DNA from: a virus
Direction: 5' to 3' (one strand)
Length of the DNA stretch: 64,000 nucleotides
IMG/VR virus record: IMGVR_UViG_3300025030_000058
Location: 33,297 to 97,296 of that record
Below are positions 27,111-64,000 of the stretch, in pieces. The notes beneath the pieces were generated by a model, which was not told the DNA's origin, searched no databases, and saw only the letters and a list, made by a program, of their open reading frames with translations. Position 1 is the stretch's first letter; the number at the start of each line of letters is the position of its first letter. Position numbers and translations under genes: made by a program.

Positions 27111-27599
27111 CTACACTTGCCGCGCGTATTGAAAATGTTGCCCGTCGGGGCGACGCCATGCGCCCCCCCACACCCATCCCAGATCAGTAAACGCTGTTAC
27201 CAAGGCATCCGGCATCTCGGGCTTCTTTCCCAGGGGGTTTGAGACGCAGCAGAAGTCCAGTGCCATCCCAAAACTGTGAACCGACAGTTTACTGGCGTAT
27301 CCCCGCTTGGTGCGGTACATATACGCTCCACCGAAGTCCTCCAACAGACTCCACAGTCCGTTCGTGTACAGAACCATAAAGGTATCCGTTACCACGTCTT
27401 GAATGTACTTATGCACCCACACCTGTGTAGCCTTGGTCTTGGGATCCCACGCTAGGGGAATAGGAGCTAAGAACGGGACGCGAACGAGGTTATGCGCCTC
27501 CCAATTGCGCCTGTGCTCCATGTCCTCCGGGGGCTGACTGCACACGCGGGTCAACCCCTCGTAGCCGACCGGAACATCCGGCCGACGCGGGTCCTCCAT
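27111..27599 (-). CDS. Endolysin, M15-type peptidoglycan peptidase, 162 aa
   Basis: The C-terminal half carries the zinc peptidase M15 (VanY / D-Ala-D-Ala carboxypeptidase) signature: SVHSFGMALDF (His and Asp ligands), LGWVWGGAW and DGQHF (last His ligand). Such enzymes cut peptide bonds in peptidoglycan and serve as phage endolysins. There is no signal peptide, so it needs the neighbouring holin. ATG 27599 lies one base after the previous stop; a longer frame to 27704 overlaps the upstream gene and was rejected. Confidence 0.85.
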   Translation of the reverse strand: MEDPRRPDVPVGYEGLTRVCSQPPEDMEHRRNWEAHNLVRVPFLAPIPLAWDPKTKATQVWVHKYIQDVVTDTFMVLYTNGLWSLLEDFGGAYMYRTKRGYASKLSVHSFGMALDFCCVSNPLGKKPEMPDALVTAFTDLGWVWGGAWRRPDGQHFQYARQV

Positions 27600-27600
27600 G

Positions 27601-27987
27601 TCACTTGCCCTGCCAAACGAGACAGATGTTGGGTTCGCCAGGCTTCTGCGTCCAGTCCACGAGGTTGAAATACGTGTGGAGCTTGACCACACGGTACTCT
27701 TCACCGCACGACTTGGTGCCCGGTTGGTAGTACCGGCACGTGGCGCATTTCTGATCGTTGGGGTCCGTGGCTTCGGTCAAGGCGTTGAGACGTTTTAGGG
27801 CCTCGTCAAACTTGCTCATGAGAGCCTCCTGCTTAGGGTTGCGCTGCCACTCGCGCACCGCCGATACCGCCTCAGCGATAATGGCCGCGCGCGTGGATTT
27901 TCTATCGTTGCCCATTTTCTCCTGGCAATATTCCAGTTCTGTAATCGCTTTTTGCAATGCCAGGACAAGACGGTCAATAGGCTTCAT
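27601..27987 (-). CDS. Two-start protein in the lysis cassette, 128 aa (internal form 72 aa)
   Basis: ATG 27987 has GGAGG six bases upstream and overlaps the holin-candidate stop (ATGA). A second in-frame ATG at 27819 has AGGAGG five bases upstream, so a 72-residue C-terminal form starting MSKFDEALKRLNAL is likely. The N-terminal part is helical; the C-terminal part has CATCRYYQPGTKSC, a probable metal site. Its place between holin candidate and endolysin suggests a lysis role, unproven. Confidence 0.6.
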   Translation of the reverse strand: MKPIDRLVLALQKAITELEYCQEKMGNDRKSTRAAIIAEAVSAVREWQRNPKQEALMSKFDEALKRLNALTEATDPNDQKCATCRYYQPGTKSCGEEYRVVKLHTYFNLVDWTQKPGEPNICLVWQGK

Positions 27988-31059: not shown

Positions 31060-34000
31060 CTACGTAGAAAATCCTACGGTGACGATTTCCGTGGGCCCTA
31101 AGAAGAAATTAGAGCCTCGTGTGTGATTGATCAAGTGTCCGGTCGTAGCCAAGCGAAGGTGCTCAAGTATTTCCCGAACGCTGTACTCTCCTGGCGCAAA
31201 GGTCACTATCTTTGCCGTATGCGGGGTCGTGACGGGATTACCTTCTACAATATGGACGCGCAGTGTTCTATCCGAAACACCGGAAAAATCATAAGGCCCG
31301 TCAATTGTACTGATGACTTTGGTATGCCAAGGGTTCCCAATCAATGCCCAATACGTCCCGTTTGGAGGGCGTTTCGCGGCGTCCGCAGTGTGGTTTAAAA
31401 TACAGTTATACTCCAAGCCGAGGTCTTCGACATGATCTCCAACGGTGTACGCGGTGCCATCCGTCCAGATATATAGCACCGTCAATCCTAATATGGTTGC
31501 GGCATCCAGTGTGGATTTCTCAAACAAGAATTGCACCAGTGTGGGCTCCGTGGCAAGAATACGCACGCGATTCGCCATGGCTACGATAGGGGACCACCAT
31601 GCCGGGCTGGTCACGGGGTTATGATTGAGATTCCCATTTTGTAGGCTTTGATATAGTACGTCCTTGAAACATGCGTAATCATTCAAAGCATAGGTCGTTC
31701 CAGAATCCCACGTGTCTGGGGAAATCTGCATCCAATAGGCGGGGCTGGACGCAGGGGGTTGATTTACGTTGGGCGTTTGCAGACTGGCCCAATACACCTG
31801 TTGCGTCTCGACAATGGCATTGACGGCGTAGTCATAGGCGGCGTCCCACAGACAGTAATCCACCACACCCCCCGCTCCCGTGACGCCGACTAGGGTAATG
31901 CCTTCCCGCCCATCCCTGCGTCCGGGGGTTCGGAACGCGATCCCGGCCACACCCTCGTATGACCGGGTACTGTCGTATTCCGGGCCCTCCGCCGGAAGCG
32001 CCGCCGTCCACCACAACGGACTCACGTCCGGCGTATTCCCGATATTCCCATCCTGGATGCTTTGATAGTGAACCAGTTGATAGGTCACCCAGTCTCCGGT
32101 GGCATAGGTAGCCCCCACGCCCCACTGAGGCTGTTCCTGGCTCCATTCCCCCCGATTGAAGGGGATTCTGTTTACGCTGACTTCAAACGCATTCTCATCC
32201 AGACCATAACCCAGCCCTAAGTTTTCTTCCGGCTCATCGGCGTTTTCGATAATGGTGTCCACCACCGAGAACAAGTCAAAGACGATATGCGCGGGGCGCA
32301 ATAGTTCCAGAACGCGCTCAAATGCCGTCTGTCTCTGAACCAAGGTATCTCCTGTAATGGATGGGTCTGTATTGGTAAATTTGATACTGACGTGTGGCGT
32401 CGGGAAGTAGTCATTGGTTTGATGATGCCAGGAATAGTAGAATTTTACGGTGCCGTTGGCCAGGAACGCATTGAAAGCCGCCACGTCGGAGATATGGATA
32501 TACCCCTCCGTGAAGTACACATACCCCACGATAGCTTGTGTGCCATCCGCCGCTATGGCCACAAAATCCCCGACACCGGAACGGATACCACGACCCTCTC
32601 CGTCCTTGTCCGTGGTCCTGCGGTGCGTAGAGAACGCCCGGACCTCTCCATTGTTGACCAGCCGCACGGACCCCACCATCAACGGGTACTCTTTGTAATC
32701 ATCCGGGTTCATGGAGATCGCCGACGGATCATGCGGCAAGTAAATGCGCAGAGTATTCCCCACCGTGGAGGACAGTATGCTGGGATCCATCGTCCAGGCA
32801 TCCGTGGCATAAAACGCCACCTCCAGACCTAGGACGGTTTGCTGTATCTCTTTCCACCACGCTGGGCTGGCAGCAGGGTCGTGATTGAGATTCCCGTTTT
32901 GCAGACTTTCCCAGGTCTTGGAATCGCTGCGTACCACCCGTCCGAGAGCGTAAGTGACCCCAGCGTCCCAAGGAATACCCCACATGGGGCCATGAGTTGA
33001 CGGAATATCTGTGTACTTGATGAACGTCTGATAATCGCATGACCATAGCTCATCTACAACCGTGGCATACGCCAGCAGGTATTTAACCATTTGCAGAGAA
33101 GGAAGCGCGCCTTTTAGACGGTAGAATTCCACTAAGTTCCCGAGCAACCAGCGCTTGTCCGCCTCAGGCATAAAATACACCAATGGAAATCCAAATTCAT
33201 TGGCAATCTCATTCAAAAAGCGGTCAGCCGCCGTTTCCAAGGCTCGGATACCCGGATAGTTCCGGATGGAGTACAACATCTCATCCATATACTTTGCCAG
33301 TATCTTCATGTAGAACCGGAGATTACTATCATAGCCCGTCCACACGACCCTCAACGTGTACGCTGTGACGCCTGCGAGTTTATTCAATAACAGGGACACT
33401 CGGCCTTCCGTATCCCCGCTTAACACGTACACGTGGGCATCCAGGACCGTCCCCTCCAATGAGGAGACCCTTGTCCAAGTTTCCAATCCAGCACCGATGT
33501 CCACCTGGACGACAATTCTCCTGCCGATCAACGGTACCCGGTCTGCGGATTGAATGATAATTTGAATTTTTCTCCACCATGTGTCCGTGGCATTCCCCGT
33601 CGGCGTGTGCGCGAGGTTCCCGTTTTGCAGACTGACCCATCCCACATTGTCATAGAGCACGGTGTCTCCGGCGGCGTAGGTCGTGACCACTGACCACGGC
33701 GAGGCATTCCGCGCGGGGATATCTACCTTAGTGGATTCCCCAAACACCACCGAGTAGTCCCCCATAGCATCCATGGTCACTTGGAACACCTTGGCGTAAG
33801 GAGGGGGAGGGGGCAACGCCGTCAAATCGTCCACACGGAAATACTCATCCCCGTCAACGGTAACGTAAATGGCTTCGGGTAGTGTCCCCGAGCAAAACAC
33901 AGGGTACGTTTGGTTGTCCCCGCCGACGGCATTTTCCGTCTGATTGAAATGACAGAGATACACCCGCAAGCCGTCCCGCGTTCCATCCAGTTCCGTTGGG

Positions 34001-34101
34001 AGGTGCTCGCTGTAGAGATTAAACTCTAGTCCCGTGCTCTCTTCCTCCCGCGCAACCTGAGGCAGGTACTGAAACAGGTTATTCCAAAACGTCCAGGACA
34101 T
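31060..34101 (-). CDS. gpI-like baseplate protein with six carbohydrate-binding-like modules, 1013 aa
   Basis: Around residues 270-360, FYMKILAKYMDEMLYSIRNY, FPLVYFMPEADKRWLLGNLV and FYRLKGALPSLQMVKYLLAY fit tail protein I of contractile tails. Six copies of a module of about 40 residues (W-x-x-x-x-x-Y-x-x-G-D-x-V, y-x-S-L-Q-N-G-N, x-P, S-P-x-W-W) lie at roughly 33700-33560, 32985-32845, 32130-32000, 31850-31715, 31710-31580 and 31480-31340. They resemble type-3 chitin-binding (CBM5/12) folds and suggest multivalent glycan binding on the host surface. Confidence 0.7.
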   Translation of the reverse strand: MSWTFWNNLFQYLPQVAREEESTGLEFNLYSEHLPTELDGTRDGLRVYLCHFNQTENAVGGDNQTYPVFCSGTLPEAIYVTVDGDEYFRVDDLTALPPPPPYAKVFQVTMDAMGDYSVVFGESTKVDIPARNASPWSVVTTYAAGDTVLYDNVGWVSLQNGNLAHTPTGNATDTWWRKIQIIIQSADRVPLIGRRIVVQVDIGAGLETWTRVSSLEGTVLDAHVYVLSGDTEGRVSLLLNKLAGVTAYTLRVVWTGYDSNLRFYMKILAKYMDEMLYSIRNYPGIRALETAADRFLNEIANEFGFPLVYFMPEADKRWLLGNLVEFYRLKGALPSLQMVKYLLAYATVVDELWSCDYQTFIKYTDIPSTHGPMWGIPWDAGVTYALGRVVRSDSKTWESLQNGNLNHDPAASPAWWKEIQQTVLGLEVAFYATDAWTMDPSILSSTVGNTLRIYLPHDPSAISMNPDDYKEYPLMVGSVRLVNNGEVRAFSTHRRTTDKDGEGRGIRSGVGDFVAIAADGTQAIVGYVYFTEGYIHISDVAAFNAFLANGTVKFYYSWHHQTNDYFPTPHVSIKFTNTDPSITGDTLVQRQTAFERVLELLRPAHIVFDLFSVVDTIIENADEPEENLGLGYGLDENAFEVSVNRIPFNRGEWSQEQPQWGVGATYATGDWVTYQLVHYQSIQDGNIGNTPDVSPLWWTAALPAEGPEYDSTRSYEGVAGIAFRTPGRRDGREGITLVGVTGAGGVVDYCLWDAAYDYAVNAIVETQQVYWASLQTPNVNQPPASSPAYWMQISPDTWDSGTTYALNDYACFKDVLYQSLQNGNLNHNPVTSPAWWSPIVAMANRVRILATEPTLVQFLFEKSTLDAATILGLTVLYIWTDGTAYTVGDHVEDLGLEYNCILNHTADAAKRPPNGTYWALIGNPWHTKVISTIDGPYDFSGVSDRTLRVHIVEGNPVTTPHTAKIVTFAPGEYSVREILEHLRLATTGHLINHTRGSNFFLGPTEIVTVGFST

Positions 34102-36489: not shown

Positions 36490-38682
36490 TTATACCAACT
36501 CGTGCGTGGCTTCGCCACCGATGGCCAATGTACGCGCTTTGGATCCGGCCTTGTCGGTGATGTACGCAAAGTCATCCGTAGCTTTTATTGTTGCCGTCTG
36601 CGCGGCAGTATCAGCCAAGACGCCGTAAAATTCTGTTGAGGATATTTTTGATCCTACTTCACACACTCCAGCGGATACTCCAATTCCAAGAGAATTATCA
36701 GGAAGCACGTCCCCAAGGTAGACCAGTTTCACGGCACTCGTCGCCGTCACCGTCAACGCGGTTCCGACTAAAAGGAGGTCCCCGCTATCCAAGGCGGTAA
36801 AGGAGCCTGTACACGCGACGAACACCCCTTGGGCCGAGGCAACGGAACTTGCGCTGATCGTAATAGATACTGCGTGGGCGACCAAGGGACCATCGCCCTC
36901 AAAAGCATCAAAGGTGGAATCTAAGGCATGGACGCGCAAGGCTTCGGTCAACGTCCAATCTCCCGCCCATGTGTCCCCTTGGGACTGCATGCGGCTGGCA
37001 CCAGAAACCGTGTACGCTGTGGCCGTGATTGAGGAGTCCTCGCTGTGGATAGCGGCGGCATTCAGGGTAACCGTTCCCGTGAGAGTTAACGTCGCCTCCC
37101 GGAACGTGGCGGCAAGGTTGGTCAGCGTACTGGAATCGCTGGACGCCGTAATAGTCGCCTTCTCCACGCGCAGGGAACCTTGAAAGGTCTTAAACGCCGT
37201 GCCGGAACTGGTGTACATTCCTCCATAGATGGCCACGGACCCGGTTGCGCCCATTTCCCACAAAGCACCCGTGGCGTTGACGGTCATCCCACTCTCAGTC
37301 AGTGTGGTTTGCACTCCCATATACACGTAGGGCCCCAAGCAATTGACCGTTGTGTCGTCCAAGCGCACCGTGGCCGAGGAACAGGACAGAATCTTAATCA
37401 ATCCAGCGCTTGCGAAATTTAACGTCCCCCCCTGATGACTGAGGTGAATGTTCCCGCCCCCCACCACCTCCATGTAGTGCTTGGTGCCGGACAACGTTCC
37501 CATACGGGTTGCAATAACCGTGCAGTCACCATCCAGGATCTTGATAAAGGAATCCGTCAATTCCGCGTTGGCCTTCACATTGTCCAAGCGCAGAGTAGTC
37601 CCCGTCAACTCGAACGCGGGCCCCACGGCTTGCAGGTTATCCACGGTGTCAATGGTAAGGTCGCTATCCTGTGCCACCATCCATTGTCCCGCTGATTCTG
37701 TGGTCTTAATGTTATGTGCCTTTACGGTGGAATCCGCCACGGACATGCCCTTGATAAACCCACCCTCCGTGGAGATATTCTCCAGTGTAATTTCCGACTG
37801 ATTGGTGGCTTGAATGGAGCCTCCGGTCCCCTTGACGAATTGCTTGACATTGCGTAGCTCCAACCGACCTTGATCCATGTTGATCGCGGCGGGGTAAGTG
37901 CCCAACTGGAGGATATCCGTAACACCGTCCAAGGCGATCACGCCACGTTCCAGGCATTCAATGACCCACCCCTCTTGACACGCCAACGTGGAGAGGTTCC
38001 GTCCGACGAGGGTTCCCTTGCTGCGCACGCCGCCATTCTGGGACATCCACGTCCCGTAGACATTCTCCACCAACATGTATCCGTCCGCTTCCACGTCGAG
38101 AATCAACCCGTTGACCTGACACTCCCCGACGCTGTTCATGTGCAAGCGCGCGTGTTTAACCGTGAACAGGGTCCCCGCCTGAGTAGACAGAAACTGTACC
38201 GTGTCCTGAGGAAAGCGTGTCTCGGAGGCCAAGCGCCCGTACAGCCTGTCGTCTTGCGGAGATCCTTCCACGGTTACCGTGGAATAATCATCCAATGTAT
38301 AAAACGGGTCCGATGCGCTGGCCGGGGCAAACTGGCATCCCGTGAAGGTCACTCGGCCTCCGCGTATCATGATTGTGCCCGTGATCTTGCAGTCCCGGAA
38401 TTCAATTCGGCAATTAGTCAAAGAAATATCTTTTACTTCACATTGGTAGATGTTGCCTGTTTGCACGTTGTCCAGTTCCACCGTGTCAATGGTACTCCGG
38501 CTGATGTTGACCCACCCTCCAGTGCCGTCCAAGCGGTCCACGGCGCTATCGTATAGATTCAGATCTACGCCGGGCTGTAGGGTGGCGTTACCCGTCCCCT
38601 GGTCCAGGACAACCCTGTACAGCTTGTAGGGCAGAGCCGCCGAAGGAGTGAGGTGTTCGCGGATCGTCGCATTAATGTCCAT
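36490..38682 (-). CDS. Beta-helix tail protein, 730 aa
   Basis: ATG 38682 has GGAG seven bases upstream and overlaps the spike stop by 11 bases. The protein is built of short repeats of about 22-25 residues with a stacked-Asn/Cys/Val pattern (STIDTVELDNVQTGN, CRIEFRDCKITGTIMIRGG, GRLELRNVKQF), as in right-handed parallel beta-helices of phage tailspikes. No catalytic residues for depolymerase activity could be assigned. It sits between spike and gp25-like genes. Confidence 0.65.
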   Translation of the reverse strand: MDINATIREHLTPSAALPYKLYRVVLDQGTGNATLQPGVDLNLYDSAVDRLDGTGGWVNISRSTIDTVELDNVQTGNIYQCEVKDISLTNCRIEFRDCKITGTIMIRGGRVTFTGCQFAPASASDPFYTLDDYSTVTVEGSPQDDRLYGRLASETRFPQDTVQFLSTQAGTLFTVKHARLHMNSVGECQVNGLILDVEADGYMLVENVYGTWMSQNGGVRSKGTLVGRNLSTLACQEGWVIECLERGVIALDGVTDILQLGTYPAAINMDQGRLELRNVKQFVKGTGGSIQATNQSEITLENISTEGGFIKGMSVADSTVKAHNIKTTESAGQWMVAQDSDLTIDTVDNLQAVGPAFELTGTTLRLDNVKANAELTDSFIKILDGDCTVIATRMGTLSGTKHYMEVVGGGNIHLSHQGGTLNFASAGLIKILSCSSATVRLDDTTVNCLGPYVYMGVQTTLTESGMTVNATGALWEMGATGSVAIYGGMYTSSGTAFKTFQGSLRVEKATITASSDSSTLTNLAATFREATLTLTGTVTLNAAAIHSEDSSITATAYTVSGASRMQSQGDTWAGDWTLTEALRVHALDSTFDAFEGDGPLVAHAVSITISASSVASAQGVFVACTGSFTALDSGDLLLVGTALTVTATSAVKLVYLGDVLPDNSLGIGVSAGVCEVGSKISSTEFYGVLADTAAQTATIKATDDFAYITDKAGSKARTLAIGGEATHELV

Positions 38683-39742
38683 GCATTTCTCCATGGACCA
38701 TTAGGTCCCCGGTTCCTCGCACGTCCCCGTCTACGTAGACATTGCCCCGAACAGCCACGTCTCCCTCCAATGTCGTGCGCTCGCCGACGATAGTCACTTC
38801 CGTGGCGGCGAGGCGCATCCGGTTGGCGTCAGCGCGGATGCCAAATTGTTGCACTCCCTGTAGAGTGTTTTCGATGCGGAATTCCCCTCGGGAAAGATTG
38901 GCGTGAATAAGAAGTTCTTGGTCTCCATTAGGTTCCCGAAGAACAATTTCCAAGCCTCTGTTCCCCGTGAAGGATCGTAGGGCGATCTCTTGCCCCAGGA
39001 AGTCAAACAAAAGAACTTCACCCCCCTGTAGAGGCAACTTCGGACCAACGGCTCCCTCTTTGTTGGCGTAGTCCGGTATCTCCGCGTCATGACGGCGGAA
39101 CGCATTCCCCGTATTGGCGACGGTGCTGATGCGGCCGGAAACTTTAAGACCCTGCCCCAAACGGTCCAGAATTTCAACCGCTTCCGCCTCATCCCGGTCG
39201 TCAATGAGAAACAGTGCTCCCTTGGGACTCTTGTACAGGACCAAGGTTGAAGGGACAAAGTTCTTATTCCGGTTTGTTTCCTCTGGGGCGTCCTGCCCGA
39301 CGGGGGCATGCCAAGGCGTCCGGTTCTCCCCGATCATGTCTCCTTCGGTCTCAGGGAGCTCGTCTGTGGCAAGATAGGTCACATCGTCCACTTCTTGGAT
39401 ACTAATATTTGCACCCATGTAGACAATATTCTCTTGGTTCCCAGCCTCAAATAACACCATAACCGCTGTTCCAACGGGAGGAACAAGAAATTCCCCAAAG
39501 TCGTTTCCCGACGGGGCGCAAATCCCTGGAACCGCCCATTTCAAGTCCTCGGTGGTCATACGGCCTTCGTCGGCGAACCCATGAAGCGTCGGAACCCGGA
39601 CCTTGCACCGCTTGAGTCCCAGAGGGTCTGCGTTGAATTCCACTACTCCGCGCACCATGACAAAGAGTTGACCTCCAGGGCCAACAATCTTTTGCTGTGT
39701 TACGTTATGCCGGAACCGGCGCTGCCCCTTAGCAATCGTCAT
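38672..39742 (-). CDS. Baseplate central spike, gp5/gpV-like, 356 aa
   Basis: An N-terminal OB-fold segment (DPLGLKRCKVRVPTLHGFAD, then LKWAVPGICAPSG and PPVGTAVMVLFEAGNQENIV) is the typical start of gp5/gpV/VgrG spikes. The end (EGDVAVRGNVYVDGDVRGTG) is the repeat of a triple beta-helix needle. It pierces the outer host layer. No lysozyme domain is inserted, unlike T4 gp5. Confidence 0.88.
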   Translation of the reverse strand: MTIAKGQRRFRHNVTQQKIVGPGGQLFVMVRGVVEFNADPLGLKRCKVRVPTLHGFADEGRMTTEDLKWAVPGICAPSGNDFGEFLVPPVGTAVMVLFEAGNQENIVYMGANISIQEVDDVTYLATDELPETEGDMIGENRTPWHAPVGQDAPEETNRNKNFVPSTLVLYKSPKGALFLIDDRDEAEAVEILDRLGQGLKVSGRISTVANTGNAFRRHDAEIPDYANKEGAVGPKLPLQGGEVLLFDFLGQEIALRSFTGNRGLEIVLREPNGDQELLIHANLSRGEFRIENTLQGVQQFGIRADANRMRLAATEVTIVGERTTLEGDVAVRGNVYVDGDVRGTGDLMVHGEMHGH

Positions 39743-46447: not shown

Positions 46448-48586
46448 TTAGATAGTGAACTCGTTCAGGTCCGCGCCGGAGGGCGTGACCACGAAGTCGA
46501 TCTGGATGATTTCCGCCACGCGCGTGGGGTCCAAGATAATGACCCCGTGCATTTCATTCCGGGCAATGGCGTCCGGGGGATTGGTGGCCGCGTCACACTT
46601 GACGGCGTAGCTATTCAACCCCCGGCGGTTCTTGACGCCCTCCAGGAACGGTTCCACCAACCCCTTGAACCGCCGCCAGGTCACGGCATCGTCCAATTGG
46701 AACAACAGCAGGTAGGAAGATGCAGCAATCGTCTTGCGGAGGTACAGGAGCAACCGGCGGACGTTGATCCGATCCATGGCCGTCGGGGCGCGTTGGAGCG
46801 TCCGCTGACCGAAGATGGTTACGCCATGACGCGGGGGAGCGATGATGGGATTGACCGCGTTGCCGTTCCCATACAGGAGATCCCGGTCCCCCTGATCCGC
46901 CTCGAATTCCAGTTCCATCACGTTGATGAGACGACCGTAGACGGGACCGGCGGGAGCCTGCCAGACCTCGGCGTTGAAGTCGGTGTAGGCGATGGCTCCC
47001 GCGACGAAGCCGGACGGCGGAACCCACACTTCCTGCTTGTTCGTGTAGTCCTGGACCTTCAACCACGGCCAGAATAGCGCGCCGTAGGACGAGTCATAGG
47101 CGACATGCGAACTGTTGGGGGCCAACCAGCCGTTGTGCCAGTCGATCACTTCCGACACGTCAAAGCCGATGGGAGGATCAATCAGGGCCAGGCAGTCACC
47201 CCGTGTCTCCGCGATGGTCAGCAGTTCCGTGACGACGGCATGGGCGTACTCGCCGGGGACAGCCAGAAGATTGACATCCACGCGGTCCACATTAGTGAAC
47301 GCCTGGAGGGACGCGACGAAATCCGCGTCCAAGGCCGCTGCATCCACACCGGCGGCCAGGGTGAAGGTCCCCAACGTAGGAGTTGTCAACGTGGATCCCG
47401 TCATGTCGATCTCAATGTAATGCGAGGAGATCTTTTTCATGATGAAATACGGGGATGTGGGGTCCATGTCCAGCACGTCCGCGACGTAAAGGGAATTCCC
47501 GCCTGTATCCTTGACAGTTAACTTGAATGTGCTGGAAATACTGCCCGCAGACGTGACGACCTGGAACCCGTTGGCCCAGACGCCTTTGGAATAGGCGTAC
47601 GCGGTAAACGCCGTTCCGCCGGAGGCCACGCCGGTGTACGTGACATTATCCCATCCTAACGCGGTTTCGCAAAGGGAATCGGCATGCATGGTGAGGTTAG
47701 AGGCCGCACCTGTAGTCAAGGAGGAAATCTTAATCTTGTTGTTGACAACTTCCGCCAGGCCCCACAGGCTGAAATCCGTCAGAGCGTTGATAGCGGTAGC
47801 AACCTGCGACGCCGTCAGCGTCCCGCCGCCGAGGTAACCAGTGATTGTGTGACCCGTGTCAATGACCAACTTGATGTAATCCGTCCCCGCGATGACATCC
47901 GCGCCCGCCTTTGCCACGCCGACGGCTGCTGTAAATCCCAACGTGGTATAGCAATCGTTGGCGACGGCGGTAACCGTGAACGTGGCGGCCGCGCCCGTAG
48001 TATTGTGTGTAACCTTGATCTTGCCTCCATCGGGAGCAAACGTTAGTCCAGCGGATCCAGCGTTCAATTCACCGCAGATTTGCGCGGCCGTTCGACTGCC
48101 AGCGGTCAACGTGACCGTATAGGGCGACGCGCCGGGATCTGGAACAATGGCCACCAGGAACTTGTCATTCACGCCGGTGGAGATGTTGAAGTTCTCCGCC
48201 TCGATCCCCGTGAACGTCGCGGCCTGCGCGTCCACGTGCGCCACGAGCGTAAACGGCCCCGCCACGGTGCCGGTATGCGATCCAGGCGTGGCTCCAGCCG
48301 TCACAATAATCCGTGCTTCATCGGCGGCAGCTCCGGTGGTGCGTAGCACTTTGGCGTTTTTCCCGTTCCGCAGGTACGCAATGACGGCGTAGGTGGCCAG
48401 ATAATTAGGATTCACATTGCCAAACTCTAACGCTAAATCCAGAACGTTGGTGATGTCCGTGATTTTGTCCGTACGCCCCTTTTCAAACTCCCCGGCGACG
48501 CCGAAGATGCACGTGGACAGATTGGCCACATAGGCCGAGAGATCCCGTTCTGTGGTGTAAATTCCAGGGCTGACATGTACAGACAT
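46448..48586 (-). CDS. Tail sheath protein with inserted domains, 712 aa
   Basis: AAGGAG precedes ATG 48586. The start VHVSPGIYTTERDLSAYVAN and the end (QRAPTAMDRINVRRLLLYLR, then AASSYLLLFQ, and NEMHGVIILDPTR) are standard sheath sequence. Between them lie two related repeats of about 75 residues (YTVTLTAGSRTAAQICGELN; HTITGYLGGGTLTASQVATA), each with a conserved A-x-x-I/L-x-x-x-I/L-N core and an end in A/T-L-G, like flagellar hook IN motifs. They probably protrude from the tail surface. T4 gp18 is of similar length. Confidence 0.9.
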   Translation of the reverse strand: MSVHVSPGIYTTERDLSAYVANLSTCIFGVAGEFEKGRTDKITDITNVLDLALEFGNVNPNYLATYAVIAYLRNGKNAKVLRTTGAAADEARIIVTAGATPGSHTGTVAGPFTLVAHVDAQAATFTGIEAENFNISTGVNDKFLVAIVPDPGASPYTVTLTAGSRTAAQICGELNAGSAGLTFAPDGGKIKVTHNTTGAAATFTVTAVANDCYTTLGFTAAVGVAKAGADVIAGTDYIKLVIDTGHTITGYLGGGTLTASQVATAINALTDFSLWGLAEVVNNKIKISSLTTGAASNLTMHADSLCETALGWDNVTYTGVASGGTAFTAYAYSKGVWANGFQVVTSAGSISSTFKLTVKDTGGNSLYVADVLDMDPTSPYFIMKKISSHYIEIDMTGSTLTTPTLGTFTLAAGVDAAALDADFVASLQAFTNVDRVDVNLLAVPGEYAHAVVTELLTIAETRGDCLALIDPPIGFDVSEVIDWHNGWLAPNSSHVAYDSSYGALFWPWLKVQDYTNKQEVWVPPSGFVAGAIAYTDFNAEVWQAPAGPVYGRLINVMELEFEADQGDRDLLYGNGNAVNPIIAPPRHGVTIFGQRTLQRAPTAMDRINVRRLLLYLRKTIAASSYLLLFQLDDAVTWRRFKGLVEPFLEGVKNRRGLNSYAVKCDAATNPPDAIARNEMHGVIILDPTRVAEIIQIDFVVTPSGADLNEFTI

Positions 48587-58548: not shown

Positions 58549-58705
58549 CTTCAATCTCCTCCAAACATCTTTCGACGACTTCTAAGTCCTTGCCAATGGC
58601 TTGAATTCCGGTCCTCAGCGCGTTTCCCAGAGCATCTTGTTTGGTTACAAGAGCCAAAGCCTCCGTGACGGTATCACGCACCCGCTGGCCTTGAACGCAC
58701 ACCAT
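58505..58705 (-). CDS. Small helical protein, 66 aa
   Basis: AGGAG lies four bases before ATG 58705. The gene overlaps both neighbours (32 and 44 bases). The protein is mostly helix (VTEALALVTKQDALGNALRT, KDLEVVERCLEEIE) and may pair with the coiled-coil protein encoded downstream. Function unknown. Confidence 0.55.
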   Translation of the reverse strand: MVCVQGQRVRDTVTEALALVTKQDALGNALRTGIQAIGKDLEVVERCLEEIEDGASRNASGTESHC

Positions 58706-58874
58706 CAGACTCCTGCTTGGCGATCCACGCCTGCATGGCCAGGGCTTCCGTGTCGGCCATCGCCGCCTTGCGTCCGCACCCCTCGCACTCGACCACGTAG
58801 CGCTGGTTCATGCGAAGGAGCAGTTGCATGGGCGACCGGCATTCGGAGCATGGCGTGAGGAAGATCCTGTGCAT
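58674..58874 (-). CDS. Lar-like zinc-ribbon protein, 66 aa
   Basis: CSECRSP and CEGCGRKA form a zinc ribbon, followed by DTEALAMQAWIAK. This is the layout of the Lar restriction-alleviation family (C-x2-C ... C-x2-CG ... A-x-x-x-W). Lar of the Rac prophage modulates type I restriction-modification. Whether this protein does so is unknown. The start has no good ribosome binding site. Confidence 0.55.
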   Translation of the reverse strand: MHRIFLTPCSECRSPMQLLLRMNQRYVVECEGCGRKAAMADTEALAMQAWIAKQESDGVRSRPAGA

Positions 58875-58884
58875 TTAGCACGGG

Positions 58885-60474
58885 TTAGTAATTGTAATTA
58901 AGAAACCACGTGTTGGTGGACTCGTCCGCGACGAAGATCACCTGCTTGTTGGTGTAGTCCGTCCAGAAATCCGTATCCTCCAGTTTTTCGGTCGGCGAGT
59001 GACCCGTTATCGCAGCGGTGACGATGGAATACGCGCCGGTGTACTCGGCATAGAGAGGAATCTGCTTGAGCGTCACAAGCCCGGAGGCGTCATAGCGCAG
59101 GCCATTGTCCACGTAAAGGTCAAAGGTCTTAGCGGCACCGGCGGCGCTGACGGCGAAGCCCCAGGCGTCCGTGTCACTGCGGGTCAGTGCGGAGACGTTG
59201 AAGCGCACGTAGGTCCAGGTTGTAGCTGTCAGTGCGGGGAAATTAACGTACTGCGTTCCGCCCGTCCCATCCACCAGTTTCAGCTTAGCGTCGCCCGCGT
59301 CCAACGCAATCGAGGCGTTCGCCCACAGGCCGACGTACTCTCCGGTCCAGTTCTCGCTGACGTGGGTCACAGCGTCGTTCACGGCGTCATTCAGGGCGGC
59401 AGTACCGTCACAGGAGAGCTTGAGGGACCCGGTTCCCTTGCGATAGGTCACGGCGTCGGCGGCGACGGTGAAGTGGATATCGGAAGCAACCCAGTTTCCA
59501 ATCACCTCAAAAGAGTCCAGAAGATCATAGCCGGTATTCACCAGGCCATCGAACATCTCAAAGCGTTGGTGCGACGTCCGGGAATCCACGTAATTCTTTG
59601 TCGCGGCATCCTGCGCCGAAGTCGGATCGAGGAGGTTCTGAGCCACGGAATTGCTGAATCCGACGGCTTTGACGGTTGGATTCAGGATAATGGAATCGTC
59701 CGAGGACAGGGTATGCCCCACGACATTAAACTCATGAATTTCCACCCCACCGGTCCCGCCGTTAATGTCAACCTTGCCGGTGCCTTTAGCGGTTACCGCG
59801 ATGCTGGCGTTGACTGCGGCGGCCTCTGCGGAAACGGTGAATCCACCTTCGCCGGTAACCATGGAGATAGAGCCGTTGCCCTTTCCGGTTAAGCTCGCGG
59901 ATGCGTTGGTCGCGGCAGAACTGGACCAAGCAAAATCAGCGGCGGACGTGATGGACGGAATGATCAAGCCCGCGAAGGTTGGCGTGGTGGACGTTTTTGT
60001 GCTTTGATCAAACCAGTCGCTAAGTGTAGGGTTTCCGCTTAGGGTCAACGAGCGAGCCGCGTCACCGGTGATGATGGTGAATATCCGGTCCGCCGTAAGA
60101 TTGGATCCCGGCTTGATGATTAAGTCATGGGTAGCGTTCGTATCCAGGATGTGCAGGCTTTCATTCCCGAAGGTCCACACCCCGGCCGCGCCGAAGGAAA
60201 TGGCCCCATCGTACCCGATTTTGAAGTAGCTCGTGCCGTTGGCCGACTGGACATCGAAGAGCGGCTGTGTCTGGCTGGCCACGCGCCGGAGGGTGAACAG
60301 CGCTTGCGCGGAGGTCACGGGCTTGGTCGGGTCAAACTCCAGGAGCATCCCCTGGGTCTGGAGCTTGAAGTTCTCCCCGTGCATGGGCCAGGTCGGCCGT
60401 GTGTAAGTATCCGCGTTGAGGACGGTTCCGAATAGAATCACGAGGGTGAGAACGGCGAAGAATCGTAGTTTCAT
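58885..60474 (-). CDS. Fibre-like protein with a Sec signal peptide, 529 aa
   Basis: AAAGGAGG precedes ATG 60474. Residues 1-21 (KLRFFAVLTLVILFGTVLNA) form a signal peptide with a likely cut after LNA. The mature part begins with a domain also seen in the 61072 gene (LFTLRRVASQTQPLFDVQSA), followed by Gly/Ser/Thr repeats (AAAVNASIAVTAKGTGKVDI) and a beta-jelly-roll-like end (GSLKLSCDGTAALNDA). Phage fibres rarely carry signal peptides, so a secreted or cell-surface product must be considered. Confidence 0.7.
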   Translation of the reverse strand: MKLRFFAVLTLVILFGTVLNADTYTRPTWPMHGENFKLQTQGMLLEFDPTKPVTSAQALFTLRRVASQTQPLFDVQSANGTSYFKIGYDGAISFGAAGVWTFGNESLHILDTNATHDLIIKPGSNLTADRIFTIITGDAARSLTLSGNPTLSDWFDQSTKTSTTPTFAGLIIPSITSAADFAWSSSAATNASASLTGKGNGSISMVTGEGGFTVSAEAAAVNASIAVTAKGTGKVDINGGTGGVEIHEFNVVGHTLSSDDSIILNPTVKAVGFSNSVAQNLLDPTSAQDAATKNYVDSRTSHQRFEMFDGLVNTGYDLLDSFEVIGNWVASDIHFTVAADAVTYRKGTGSLKLSCDGTAALNDAVNDAVTHVSENWTGEYVGLWANASIALDAGDAKLKLVDGTGGTQYVNFPALTATTWTYVRFNVSALTRSDTDAWGFAVSAAGAAKTFDLYVDNGLRYDASGLVTLKQIPLYAEYTGAYSIVTAAITGHSPTEKLEDTDFWTDYTNKQVIFVADESTNTWFLNYNY

Positions 60475-60706
60475 AAATTCCTCCTTTGCGCTGGTTCGCT
60501 CAATAGTCTGACAGGACCGCTTGAAAAAACAAAACACGGTCGGTAACTTCTCATCCCTCCAGAAATAAGAGTGCGCCGCGCTTAATTGCGAAAATGTATG
60601 CCCGTTGCTACATCTGAACGATGTCGTACAGGTGTTGCAATCTCTTGGGGAGTAGTTTGCTCATTGCGGGCACACGCACTTATCCAACGCGGTTACCCAT
60701 GTACAG
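60475..60706. other. Intergenic region of 230 bases without a clear gene
   Basis: No frame with a ribosome binding site was found. Very short minus-strand frames occur (for example MSKLLPKRLQHLYDIVQM from 60662, and a 21-residue Cys-rich one from 60726), but nothing supports them. The stretch is AT-richer near 60520-60600. No convincing promoter was seen. Confidence 0.5.
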
Positions 60707-61072
60707 TTATCTCTGCATAGTGGCATCGCGTTGCGTCCAGGTGAAGTCAGTGGACAGCAGGATGGCACCGGACCGCGTGTAGACGTTGACATGTGACCTA
60801 TCGCCGGGGGCGTTGTACATGGCGAACGCCGTCGCGTGGACCGGGCCCGGCAGCGGACTAATCCAGTAATCGGCGACCCATTTCCCGGCGTTCCAATACT
60901 CAATTTTGGCCGATGCGCCGGTCCACCATCCGGGATGGTTCTCGGGGTGAATCCAGATTGAATATTGCACTTGCGGCGGGTAGGGCACCGCCCGAAGGAC
61001 AACGGTCTTCGGGGCCGTCGCACACGATAGCAGGACCATGCACAGCAGCGCGGCGAGGAAGATGCGGGGCAT
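60707..61072 (-). CDS. Small lipoprotein between two fibre-like genes, 121 aa
   Basis: The start MPRIFLAALLCMVLLSCATA has a lipobox (VLLSC), so the mature protein should be lipid-anchored at Cys17. The mature part is beta-rich with many Trp (PENHPGWWTGASAKIEYWNA). The ATG overlaps the previous stop (TGATG), with GGAG ten bases upstream. It may anchor or chaperone the secreted fibre-like proteins. No family is recognised. Confidence 0.7.
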   Translation of the reverse strand: MPRIFLAALLCMVLLSCATAPKTVVLRAVPYPPQVQYSIWIHPENHPGWWTGASAKIEYWNAGKWVADYWISPLPGPVHATAFAMYNAPGDRSHVNVYTRSGAILLSTDFTWTQRDATMQR

Positions 61073-63420
61073 CAGTTATTACTCCGGCTGATTTCGTAGT
61101 AGGAATTATCGGCTGCGACATAGAGGACGATATTGTCCCCTACGCTGTCGGGTGCCCACGCGGCGGAGAGCGCGAAGTTCCCCGCGTCCGCGATGCTGAT
61201 CGGGTTCGTCGCGCTCCCGACAATCAGGATGTAGATCTGACCAACGGTGGGGTTGTCGAGGTCGGTGATGGCCGTGGCCCCGCCGTTCGCAACGCTGGTC
61301 CAGATTCGCGCCCCGCGAACATCTGGCGTTACATCGTCAACGGTCAACGCGGCGGTGCCGTTGAGTTGCACCACGCCGCTTTCGTCTGGCATGACCTGGA
61401 ACCGGTCGGCGGTCGGATTCGTTTGCACCATTTCGGCCTCGAAGCCGTCGGCAACAGACCCTTCCGCGAACCACAGCGCGGGCGTGGCAGTGTTCTGATT
61501 GTATCCGAAATTGACGGAATTGGCTGCACCGTAGGCGGTCCCGTAGGCATGCACTCCCGTACCAGCGTAGAACTGACTGCCAATAGAGAGCGATGACCCG
61601 CAAGTGGCCCCGAATCCAGTCGGGTCTATTGCCACCTTGTTCGCGGCGGTGCCCTGTATCAAAATAAAATCGTTTGTATTTAGAGCGTTTCGGACTGCGA
61701 TGGATGCCCCGTTCGGCATGCGAATTAGGCCCGTAGCCGCGGCCGGGTTTGTACCCAATGAAATGACTGTGCTGGCGTCGCCGGTGATGTTTCCGTTGAA
61801 TGTGGCATCGTCTTCTGAATGGAATTTCCCTCTGTTGTAAATGCCATAGTTCGCGACGCCGGAGGTCGGGGCGTTGACATACAGGGAGTATGCCGTCGTG
61901 GCGGTGATGCCAGCGCTCTTGGTCGGGGCCAATAGCGCCAGCGTTGCGAGCGCAGTGATTGTCCGCGCCGATCCGTCGTCATCGGCATCAACCCCGAGGC
62001 GCGTGCCGTACATTTCCGTGAGGGCGCTTGCGGCAACAATTCGCGGTGCCGTCCATATTCCGTAGCCAGTTGTGTTCGCACCGCCCAGCGTCAAATCATC
62101 CTGTCCAAGCCCCTCCCCGATCATGAAGAGCGTGTTGGCATGCGGGCCTGCCACTTGGCTTCCGAGGCCGATTTTGCTAAAGTTCTGCGCCGCCGTCCAT
62201 GTGTTCGCGTTCGCCAGGTTGAGCCCCAGCGTATACGGGTCGCCGGAAGTGCCAGCGCCCAAGCGCGTCAGGGTGGCGTTCGTGGCGTTCGTTACCTCGT
62301 TGCCCGTGACCGCGTCACCATCCGCAGGCAGTGCCGTTGCCGCCCATGCCCCCGCGCTCGCCGTCAGCACCTTGCCATCGTCCCCAGGGTTCGCGGGCGT
62401 CGGCAGGCGCGGGTCTACCTCAGCGGGGAGCGCCGACCATTCCGCGTCGCCGCGTGCGGCCGTTAGAACCTTGCCATCATCAGTTGGATCAACAGGGATA
62501 GGCAGGCGTGGATCTACCTCAGCTTGAATGTCGGATATAAGGGCCAGGGTTCCAGTAGCCGTAGGCCACGCTATATCATGCGTGTGGCCGCTATGCGTTA
62601 AACGCCATAAGCCAGGCGGCACTACTGAGTAGTACGATGCAGACGGCTCAGGCGAGGTCTGATACATCCATGTCCCTGTGATCATCTCATCCACATCCCT
62701 ATGCGTTGCGATGGGGTCGGCCTCGGCAGTCACAGGAGCATCGGTAGCACAATTAACTACACTACCATCAGTTACACACCATTTCGTATTTGTTAATGTT
62801 CCTACTTTAGGATCAACCTCTGCGGTCACGGCAGTCTGCCAGGACAATGCCCCGCTTCCATTCGTCTGCATGAATTCACCAGCATCACCGTCATCCGGTG
62901 GGAGCGTATAGGCGATATTCTGTGTTTGGCTTCCAGCGGAAAACGTAGTCCGATAGCACGCCGCCCCACTATCGTCTGAAGAAATGAACGTCAACGGGGC
63001 AGGGATAGACAGGCACGACGCCGGGTAATTGTCGTATCCGATTTCCACGCCGGCATGGAATTTCGGAACGAGCGTTGTAGTCCGGCCGCGTCCCAACACA
63101 GTCGCCAGCGTGTCAGTTTCTACCCCAGAAATATCAGCATTAGTTAAAGCATGACCATGAAAATCCCAATCCCCTGTAGAATCCACTTCACACATGGGGG
63201 CAGCATCGGTATCCAGGATATCAAAAATATTCTGTACTTGCCCCGTTGCTTTCTTCAAAGTCATTGACGCCCGTGTAGATAGAGAGGCATCAGGTTGAAG
63301 TTGATAAAGATTGCCCTGCTTATGCATCCGATGATTCGCTCCCGTCTCATCCACGACAGGGATTTGCGCAAGGCACGGTAGGGCAATGAGAAGAATCAAG
63401 CGTAGCAGCGCGTTTTTCAT
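61072..63420 (-). CDS. Large fibre-like protein with a Sec signal peptide, 782 aa
   Basis: AAGGAG lies five bases before ATG 63420. MKNALLRLILLIALPCLAQ is a signal peptide (cut after CLA likely). The next 60 residues are paralogous to the 58885 protein (SMTLKKATGQVQNIFDILDT). Short repeats follow (AEVDPRLPIPVDPTDDGKVL, AEVDPRLPTPANPGDDGKVL), then a beta-helical fibre region (YGIYNRGKFHSEDDATFNGN) like the shafts of tail fibres. Export of such a protein is unusual for phages. Confidence 0.7.
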   Translation of the reverse strand: MKNALLRLILLIALPCLAQIPVVDETGANHRMHKQGNLYQLQPDASLSTRASMTLKKATGQVQNIFDILDTDAAPMCEVDSTGDWDFHGHALTNADISGVETDTLATVLGRGRTTTLVPKFHAGVEIGYDNYPASCLSIPAPLTFISSDDSGAACYRTTFSAGSQTQNIAYTLPPDDGDAGEFMQTNGSGALSWQTAVTAEVDPKVGTLTNTKWCVTDGSVVNCATDAPVTAEADPIATHRDVDEMITGTWMYQTSPEPSASYYSVVPPGLWRLTHSGHTHDIAWPTATGTLALISDIQAEVDPRLPIPVDPTDDGKVLTAARGDAEWSALPAEVDPRLPTPANPGDDGKVLTASAGAWAATALPADGDAVTGNEVTNATNATLTRLGAGTSGDPYTLGLNLANANTWTAAQNFSKIGLGSQVAGPHANTLFMIGEGLGQDDLTLGGANTTGYGIWTAPRIVAASALTEMYGTRLGVDADDDGSARTITALATLALLAPTKSAGITATTAYSLYVNAPTSGVANYGIYNRGKFHSEDDATFNGNITGDASTVISLGTNPAAATGLIRMPNGASIAVRNALNTNDFILIQGTAANKVAIDPTGFGATCGSSLSIGSQFYAGTGVHAYGTAYGAANSVNFGYNQNTATPALWFAEGSVADGFEAEMVQTNPTADRFQVMPDESGVVQLNGTAALTVDDVTPDVRGARIWTSVANGGATAITDLDNPTVGQIYILIVGSATNPISIADAGNFALSAAWAPDSVGDNIVLYVAADNSYYEISRSNN

Positions 63421-63429
63421 AACCTCTCC

Positions 63430-64000
63430 TTAAAATTCAATGTTACTAAATTGTAGGGTATCTTGACCTTCATCCAGGATTGTTCCGCCATCGTACAGGA
63501 AGCACTCGGAAACAATTATTTTCCCCTCCGAGGCAGGCAGAATATGCACGGTCCCCAAGGAACGGCAACGGGTGACGATTGCAAGCACGGTCCCGGAAGA
63601 GGAAACTCCATTAAGATTCAGCCCTCCTGCAAACTGGCAATCCTGGACGCGGATGGATTCGGACAGGGTGAGATTGAGAGTCACGGCACCTGAGAAGGCC
63701 AGACCCTCAAACGTAATCTCTGTCCCGGTTGTTATATCGGCCAGCACCCCCCCCGCGAACGAGAACACCGTCCCGGATTCCCCCAGGATACGGAGATTGG
63801 ACACGGAGGCCAAGGTTAACGTCTCCACGCCCGTAAACGCATACGTTCCAGCGGGGCAGAAGATAGTATACCCACCCCCCTCCCCTGCGGCGAACGCGAC
63901 GGCAGCAAGCAGCTTGTCCTTGTAGGTGGCACCGGCGTACCGGCGGATGTCCAGCCAGGGGCCGGATGCTATCACTCGGGGGGCGTAATTCCAACCACTC
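63430..64000 (-). CDS. Pectate-lyase-fold tail protein, C-terminal part (cut by window edge)
   Basis: The frame is open to the right edge, and PRVIASGPWLDIRRYAGATY is the typical N-terminal part of pectate-lyase-like beta-helix proteins (later TIFCPAGTYAFTGVETLTLA). The remaining length is about 190 residues of short beta-helix turns. A GTG at 63975 is possible but the frame continues upstream without a stop, so the true start is beyond the window. Confidence 0.6.
   Translation of the reverse strand, partial: SGWNYAPRVIASGPWLDIRRYAGATYKDKLLAAVAFAAGEGGGYTIFCPAGTYAFTGVETLTLASVSNLRILGESGTVFSFAGGVLADITTGTEITFEGLAFSGAVTLNLTLSESIRVQDCQFAGGLNLNGVSSSGTVLAIVTRCRSLGTVHILPASEGKIIVSECFLYDGGTILDEGQDTLQFSNIEF

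Follow-up and report, generated by a model that had tools for sequence, protein, structure and literature searches.

Tail fibres are generally taken to be parts of the virion that are assembled in the cytoplasm. Two fibre-like proteins of a tailed phage (virus record IMGVR_UViG_3300025030_000058), here called fibre A and fibre B, begin with Sec signal peptides and have a lipoprotein gene between them, which raises the question of where they act. The window analysed is a stretch of 64,000 nucleotides (positions 33,297 to 97,296) forming the end of this 97,296-base record. Similar signal-bearing fibres recur in unrelated viruses and on bacterial chromosomes; fibres A and B and the lipoprotein are therefore probably sticky proteins sent out of the cell, and not ordinary tail fibres. 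Our best explanation, to which we give about an even chance, is that A and B are chimeras of phage-fibre modules that leave by the Sec path and serve as adhesins, either presented by the infected cell or released from it.

Genome and Gene Organization

The phage is a T4-like myophage encoding a gp23-type capsid protein, S77 protease, portal, terminase, sheath, tape measure and baseplate wedge. The ends of the record overlap by about 150 bases, the outermost ~30 excepted, and both are bridged by a second assembly from this phage (IMGVR_UViG_3300025015_000025), so the genome is circular and about 97 kb long. In the reading direction, terminase and portal are followed by small genes, a 99-aa signal-peptide protein and a 129-aa lipoprotein (LVSC). 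Next come a terminator-like hairpin, a 192-aa spike-like protein, fibre A, the 121-aa lipoprotein and fibre B, and then a coiled-coil membrane protein, the protease and the capsid protein (Table 1). Terminator-like hairpins are no more frequent in this region than in shuffles. The spike-like gene, cut by the window end, is complete in the second assembly (L005:7413-7991) and lies 9 bases before A. The 99-aa and 129-aa exported proteins upstream of it are encoded beyond the window (L005:6598-7298, equal to L002:277-977). Five of the ten signal-like genes among the 123 called genes fall within seven consecutive genes (p = 0.0023).

Table 1. Coordinates of the fibre cluster, its neighbours and the signal-less tail-module candidates in the window.
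Feature	Position	Strand	Parts	Evidence
Fibre A, 782 aa	61072..63420	-	Sec signal peptide, residues 1-18; shared domain, about 19-95; YTLP..DG module, about 139-206; shaft; C-terminal tip domain, about 690-782	ORF, homology, structure
Lipoprotein, 121 aa	60707..61072	-	Lipobox LLSC	ORF, lipobox
Fibre B, 529 aa	58885..60474	-	Sec signal peptide, residues 1-21; shared domain, about 22-105; fibre-like rest, C-terminus unlike that of A	ORF, signal, shared domain
Upstream spike-like neighbour	63430..63999 (cut by window end)	-	No signal	Tail-spike profile match, weak (E = 0.05)
Downstream neighbour, 136 aa	58138..58548	-	Coiled coil, one C-terminal membrane span	Weak holin/haemolysin-like profile matches
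Beta-helix-like protein, ordinary spike candidate	36490..38694	-	No signal; tail module	Beta_helix below cut-off
Tail protein, 1013 aa, ordinary binding candidate	31060..34101	-	No signal	CBM_5_12 module

The three genes lie where the earlier note had placed them, with the 121-aa lipoprotein gene between A and B. A longer ORF for fibre B with a GTG start (550 aa) is not needed, and we placed the start at the ATG at 60474 because AGGAGG precedes it. The ATG of fibre A is preceded by AAGGAGAGG, so that both fibre genes have strong ribosome-binding sites. The start codon of the lipoprotein gene overlaps the stop codon of fibre A (TGATG), and the lipoprotein gene is translationally coupled to A.

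Profile and module matches, together with a fold search for the tip of A, place fibre or spike modules in both proteins, and B matches the tail protein profile phrog_1640. Searches of the PDB by sequence with fibre A, fibre B and the tip domain gave no meaningful match, and a structure prediction for the C-terminus of B, made without an alignment, was useless (pLDDT 32). Relatives of full-length fibre B and of the lipoprotein were found only in the same phage, the lipoprotein having no relative in any other phage. The 121-aa and 129-aa lipoproteins, the 99-aa exported protein and an 81-aa lipoprotein were compared as possible mutual paralogues, and the comparison argued against it.

Several further genes of the phage deserve mention. 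A 66-aa ORF between B and the next gene (58674-58874) is zinc-ribbon-like and resembles Lar restriction-alleviation proteins, below the Pfam cut-off. The 1013-aa tail protein contains several similar W-rich stretches, suggesting repeated carbohydrate-binding modules. Two lysis candidates are widely separated. One, a transglycosylase (L002:13518-14246), has a membrane span at its N-terminus and may be a signal-anchor endolysin; the other, an endolysin-like protein (27111-27704 in the window), has no such span.

The C-terminal part of the sheath protein (46448-48586) is closest to the same part of the sheath of Bacillus phage SP-15 (51%); despite this, the lipoprotein and spanin-like genes suggest a diderm host. 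Isolated relatives did not narrow the host down, as those of the sheath and polymerase span many hosts, and a capsid-based search for close relatives keeping the fibre region found none that was close. DNA matches to one bacterial order were short only; seven of the nine match regions were inspected by eye, and no CRISPR-like array was apparent in them. The best DNA match in that order reflects fibre-module homology to a chromosomal exported protein.

Export Signals and the Shared Domain

Both fibres carry the Sec signal peptides that the earlier note had read from the sequence, each with n-, h- and c-regions and a cut site: MKNALLRLILLIALPCLA followed by QIPV in A, and MKLRFFAVLTLVILFGTVLNA followed by DTYT in B. 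The 121-aa protein has the lipobox LLSC at the end of its signal peptide, followed by A, as in bacterial lipoproteins. These calls come from a rule set, not from SignalP, and about 3-6% of background genes score positive. When the first 60 residues of each protein were shuffled, about 5% of the shuffles also contained such a signal; a single signal is thus only suggestive, and it is recurrence in relatives that carries the case.

Directly after the cut, A and B share a paralogous domain of ~75 residues, as the same note had claimed. The Smith-Waterman score of 70 compares with 25 +/- 4.5 for shuffles, none of 5000 of which reached it.

The exact three-gene set was found only in the second assembly of this phage, and looser versions recur elsewhere. 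The proposal that these proteins leave the cytoplasm gained ground from signals on proteins with the same tip, from a variant with a lipobox and from chromosomal relatives. Export of A and B is well supported; its purpose is inferred.

The Tip Domain of Fibre A and Its Carriers

The last ~90 residues of fibre A form a tip domain that AlphaFold predicts with high confidence (pLDDT 95) as a tailspike/baseplate-like fold, and it occurs in many phage proteins. Foldseek comparison with the PDB retrieved the capsid spike 9ny6, CBA120 TSP4 and T4 gp9/gp10, all weakly (best E 0.017); matches among predicted viral structures reached E values down to 7e-8. Sorted by hand, the carriers are of two kinds: proteins of the capsid type often have two copies, and in those of the fibre type the tip usually forms the extreme C-terminus. 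The capsid-type phage proteins (L112-L122, L133-L151) have one or two C-terminal copies of the tip, and several have a hydrophobic N-terminus.

Leaving this phage aside, 13 carriers are of the fibre type, and 9 of them have export signals; in the background the count is 44 of 773 genes (p = 8.5e-9). The queries that retrieved the carriers contained no signal sequence. The signal-bearing carriers are L103, L104, L106, L107, L111, L129, L131, L152-154 and the chromosomal L155; L105, L139, L142 and L146 have no signal. The signals of L104, L107 and L129 hinge on the choice of start codon, and without these three the count is 6 of 13 (p = 6e-5). In L152-154 a lipobox (FVGC) takes the place of the type I signal. 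Among fibres with the inner YTLP..DG module of A, signals were found in 3 of 22 clusters outside this phage.

Other genes near exported fibres also tend to be exported: 15 of 86 carry export signals, compared with 18 of 666 in other loci (p = 4e-7). In L103 the exported fibre is followed by two similar small signal-bearing proteins, the second a clear lipoprotein, and additional exported proteins are found in L024, L028, L106, L111, L129 and L131.

Exported Relatives on Bacterial Chromosomes

The chromosomal carrier L155 comes from a Flavobacteriales assembly, in which ordinary genes surround it. The tip domain was found in 10 of 396 Bacteroidota genomes; the nine besides that of L155 all belong to one order, 18 of whose 123 genomes have the domain. 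In the same order we observed chromosomal runs of consecutive signal-bearing fibre-like genes with phage-fibre modules (L172, L173; also L174, L175). The contigs of L172 and L173 measure 1.05 and 2.84 Mb, and no virus genes were noticed beside these two runs on reading their neighbours. A further exported protein of 1526 aa (L196) matches the inner module of A (E = 2e-24), and the genes downstream of it look ordinary. The modules of A therefore serve in exported proteins with no virion in sight. L172-L175 have a G+C content (0.55-0.57) close to that of this phage (0.56), and no spacer-like match links the phage to that order.

Possible Function of the Exported Fibres

We propose the following course of events. 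The genes of A and B, located in the portal-to-capsid block, are presumably expressed late. Their signal peptides would be cut by host signal peptidase I, and the proteins would then fold, and perhaps trimerise, outside the cytoplasm. The shared domain may hold A and B to a common partner, with their differing ends binding surface ligands. The coupled lipoprotein would be lipid-anchored in the same envelope and may be a partner. On or around the infected cell, A and B could mediate adhesion or block receptors, in the way of MAT fibres on Bdellovibrio. Of the roles offered in the earlier note (a coat on the infected cell, decoy or adhesion factors, or secreted proteins picked up by virions at release), the sequence evidence leans towards an adhesin outside the cell, since signal-less binding candidates are present in the tail module and one relative appears to be lipid-anchored.

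Counting against this reading, the genes of A and B, like those of several relatives, sit among virion genes: L104 follows a capsid gene, L107 lies between the tape measure and central fibre J, and L111 follows a baseplate wedge gene. The tip, too, has the predicted fold of virion proteins, and it is found in capsid-type proteins as well. In our judgement, the strongest rival is that the exported fibres fold and trimerise in the periplasm and dock on virions at lysis through the shared domain, a course of events we regard as unlikely. The position among structural genes is what such pick-up would lead one to expect; signal-bearing relatives in L106 and L107 are tail-spike-like, and paralogous fibres of one virion often share an N-terminal domain. 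However, the chromosomal exported relatives have no virion to join, the relative in L152-154 appears anchored in lipid, and the tail module of this phage still holds its own signal-less receptor-binding candidates.

We judge it less likely still, and improbable overall, that the hydrophobic N-termini do not serve export, being either uncut anchors in the virion or at membrane assembly sites, or segments removed by the prohead protease. Capsid proteins of Porphyromonas gingivalis phages do have signal-like N-termini thought to be cut by that protease (PMC10367356), several capsid-type tip carriers also begin with hydrophobic stretches, and A and B adjoin the protease gene. Yet the cut sites are typical of signal peptides, one variant has a lipobox, and the chromosomal relatives occur without a prohead protease; the T4-type cleavage pattern [IL]xE is found once in the first 140 residues of B and is absent from those of A. 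It is very improbable that the 121-aa lipoprotein is an outer-membrane spanin and the stretch mainly a lysis region. A holin/haemolysin-like membrane protein is encoded nearby and a spanin profile matches weakly (phrog_456, E = 0.01), but this match covers residues 3-34 only, mostly the signal, and the gene is coupled to that of a fibre.

Beyond this phage, we speculate, with confidence somewhat short of even, that cassettes of Sec-exported adhesins made of tail-fibre modules, accompanied by lipoproteins, recur in unrelated tailed phages, where they arm the infected cell's surface, and that their modules are shared with chromosomal families of exported fibres. If a class of tail fibres is exported, it would often be a mistake to annotate such genes as receptor-binding proteins and to predict host range from them, and phages would own a little-studied means of altering the surface of the cell they occupy. 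The tie to chromosomal arrays of exported fibres also bears on the origin of phage-like adhesins in bacteria such as Bdellovibrio.

Comparison with Known Systems

Ordinary tail fibres and spikes, such as CBA120 TSP4 and S-CRES2 gp92, have the same fibre modules and tip fold as A and B, but they are assembled in the cytoplasm and have no signal peptides, whereas A and B both carry one. The chromosomal Bacteroidota proteins (L155, L172, L173, L196) resemble A and B in having a signal peptide with the YTLP..DG module and/or the C-terminal tip; they differ in being located on chromosomes, often in arrays, and in module order.

In phages of Porphyromonas gingivalis, genes with signal peptides conform to the Bacteroidetes Q rule (PMC10367356). 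They likewise use the host Sec path, and the predicted cut of A exposes Q in keeping with that rule; the predicted cut of B exposes D, and those P. gingivalis phage genes whose function is unknown are not described as fibres. Phage DGR target proteins are without detectable signal peptides (PMC6199706). A search of the open-access literature turned up no published description of phage tail-fibre-like proteins exported by Sec, an absence that is not proof.

The MAT fibres of Bdellovibrio bacteriovorus consist of a signal peptide, a constant domain directly after it, a phage-fibre-like shaft and varied adhesive C-termini; several are encoded per genome, and they are displayed on the cell surface (PMC10769870). 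Their constant domain is beta-rich, of about 130 aa, and without a structural homologue in the PDB (PMC10769870). Fibres A and B repeat this layout, with a Sec signal peptide (by our rule set), then a domain common to both, a phage-fibre-like shaft and differing ends. Unlike MAT fibres, they are phage-encoded inside a block of structural genes, their shared domain is shorter (about 75 against about 130 residues), and an S74 domain was not found in either. We liken A and B to MAT fibres by layout, without claiming that they belong to the family; in our judgement they may work as MAT fibres do.
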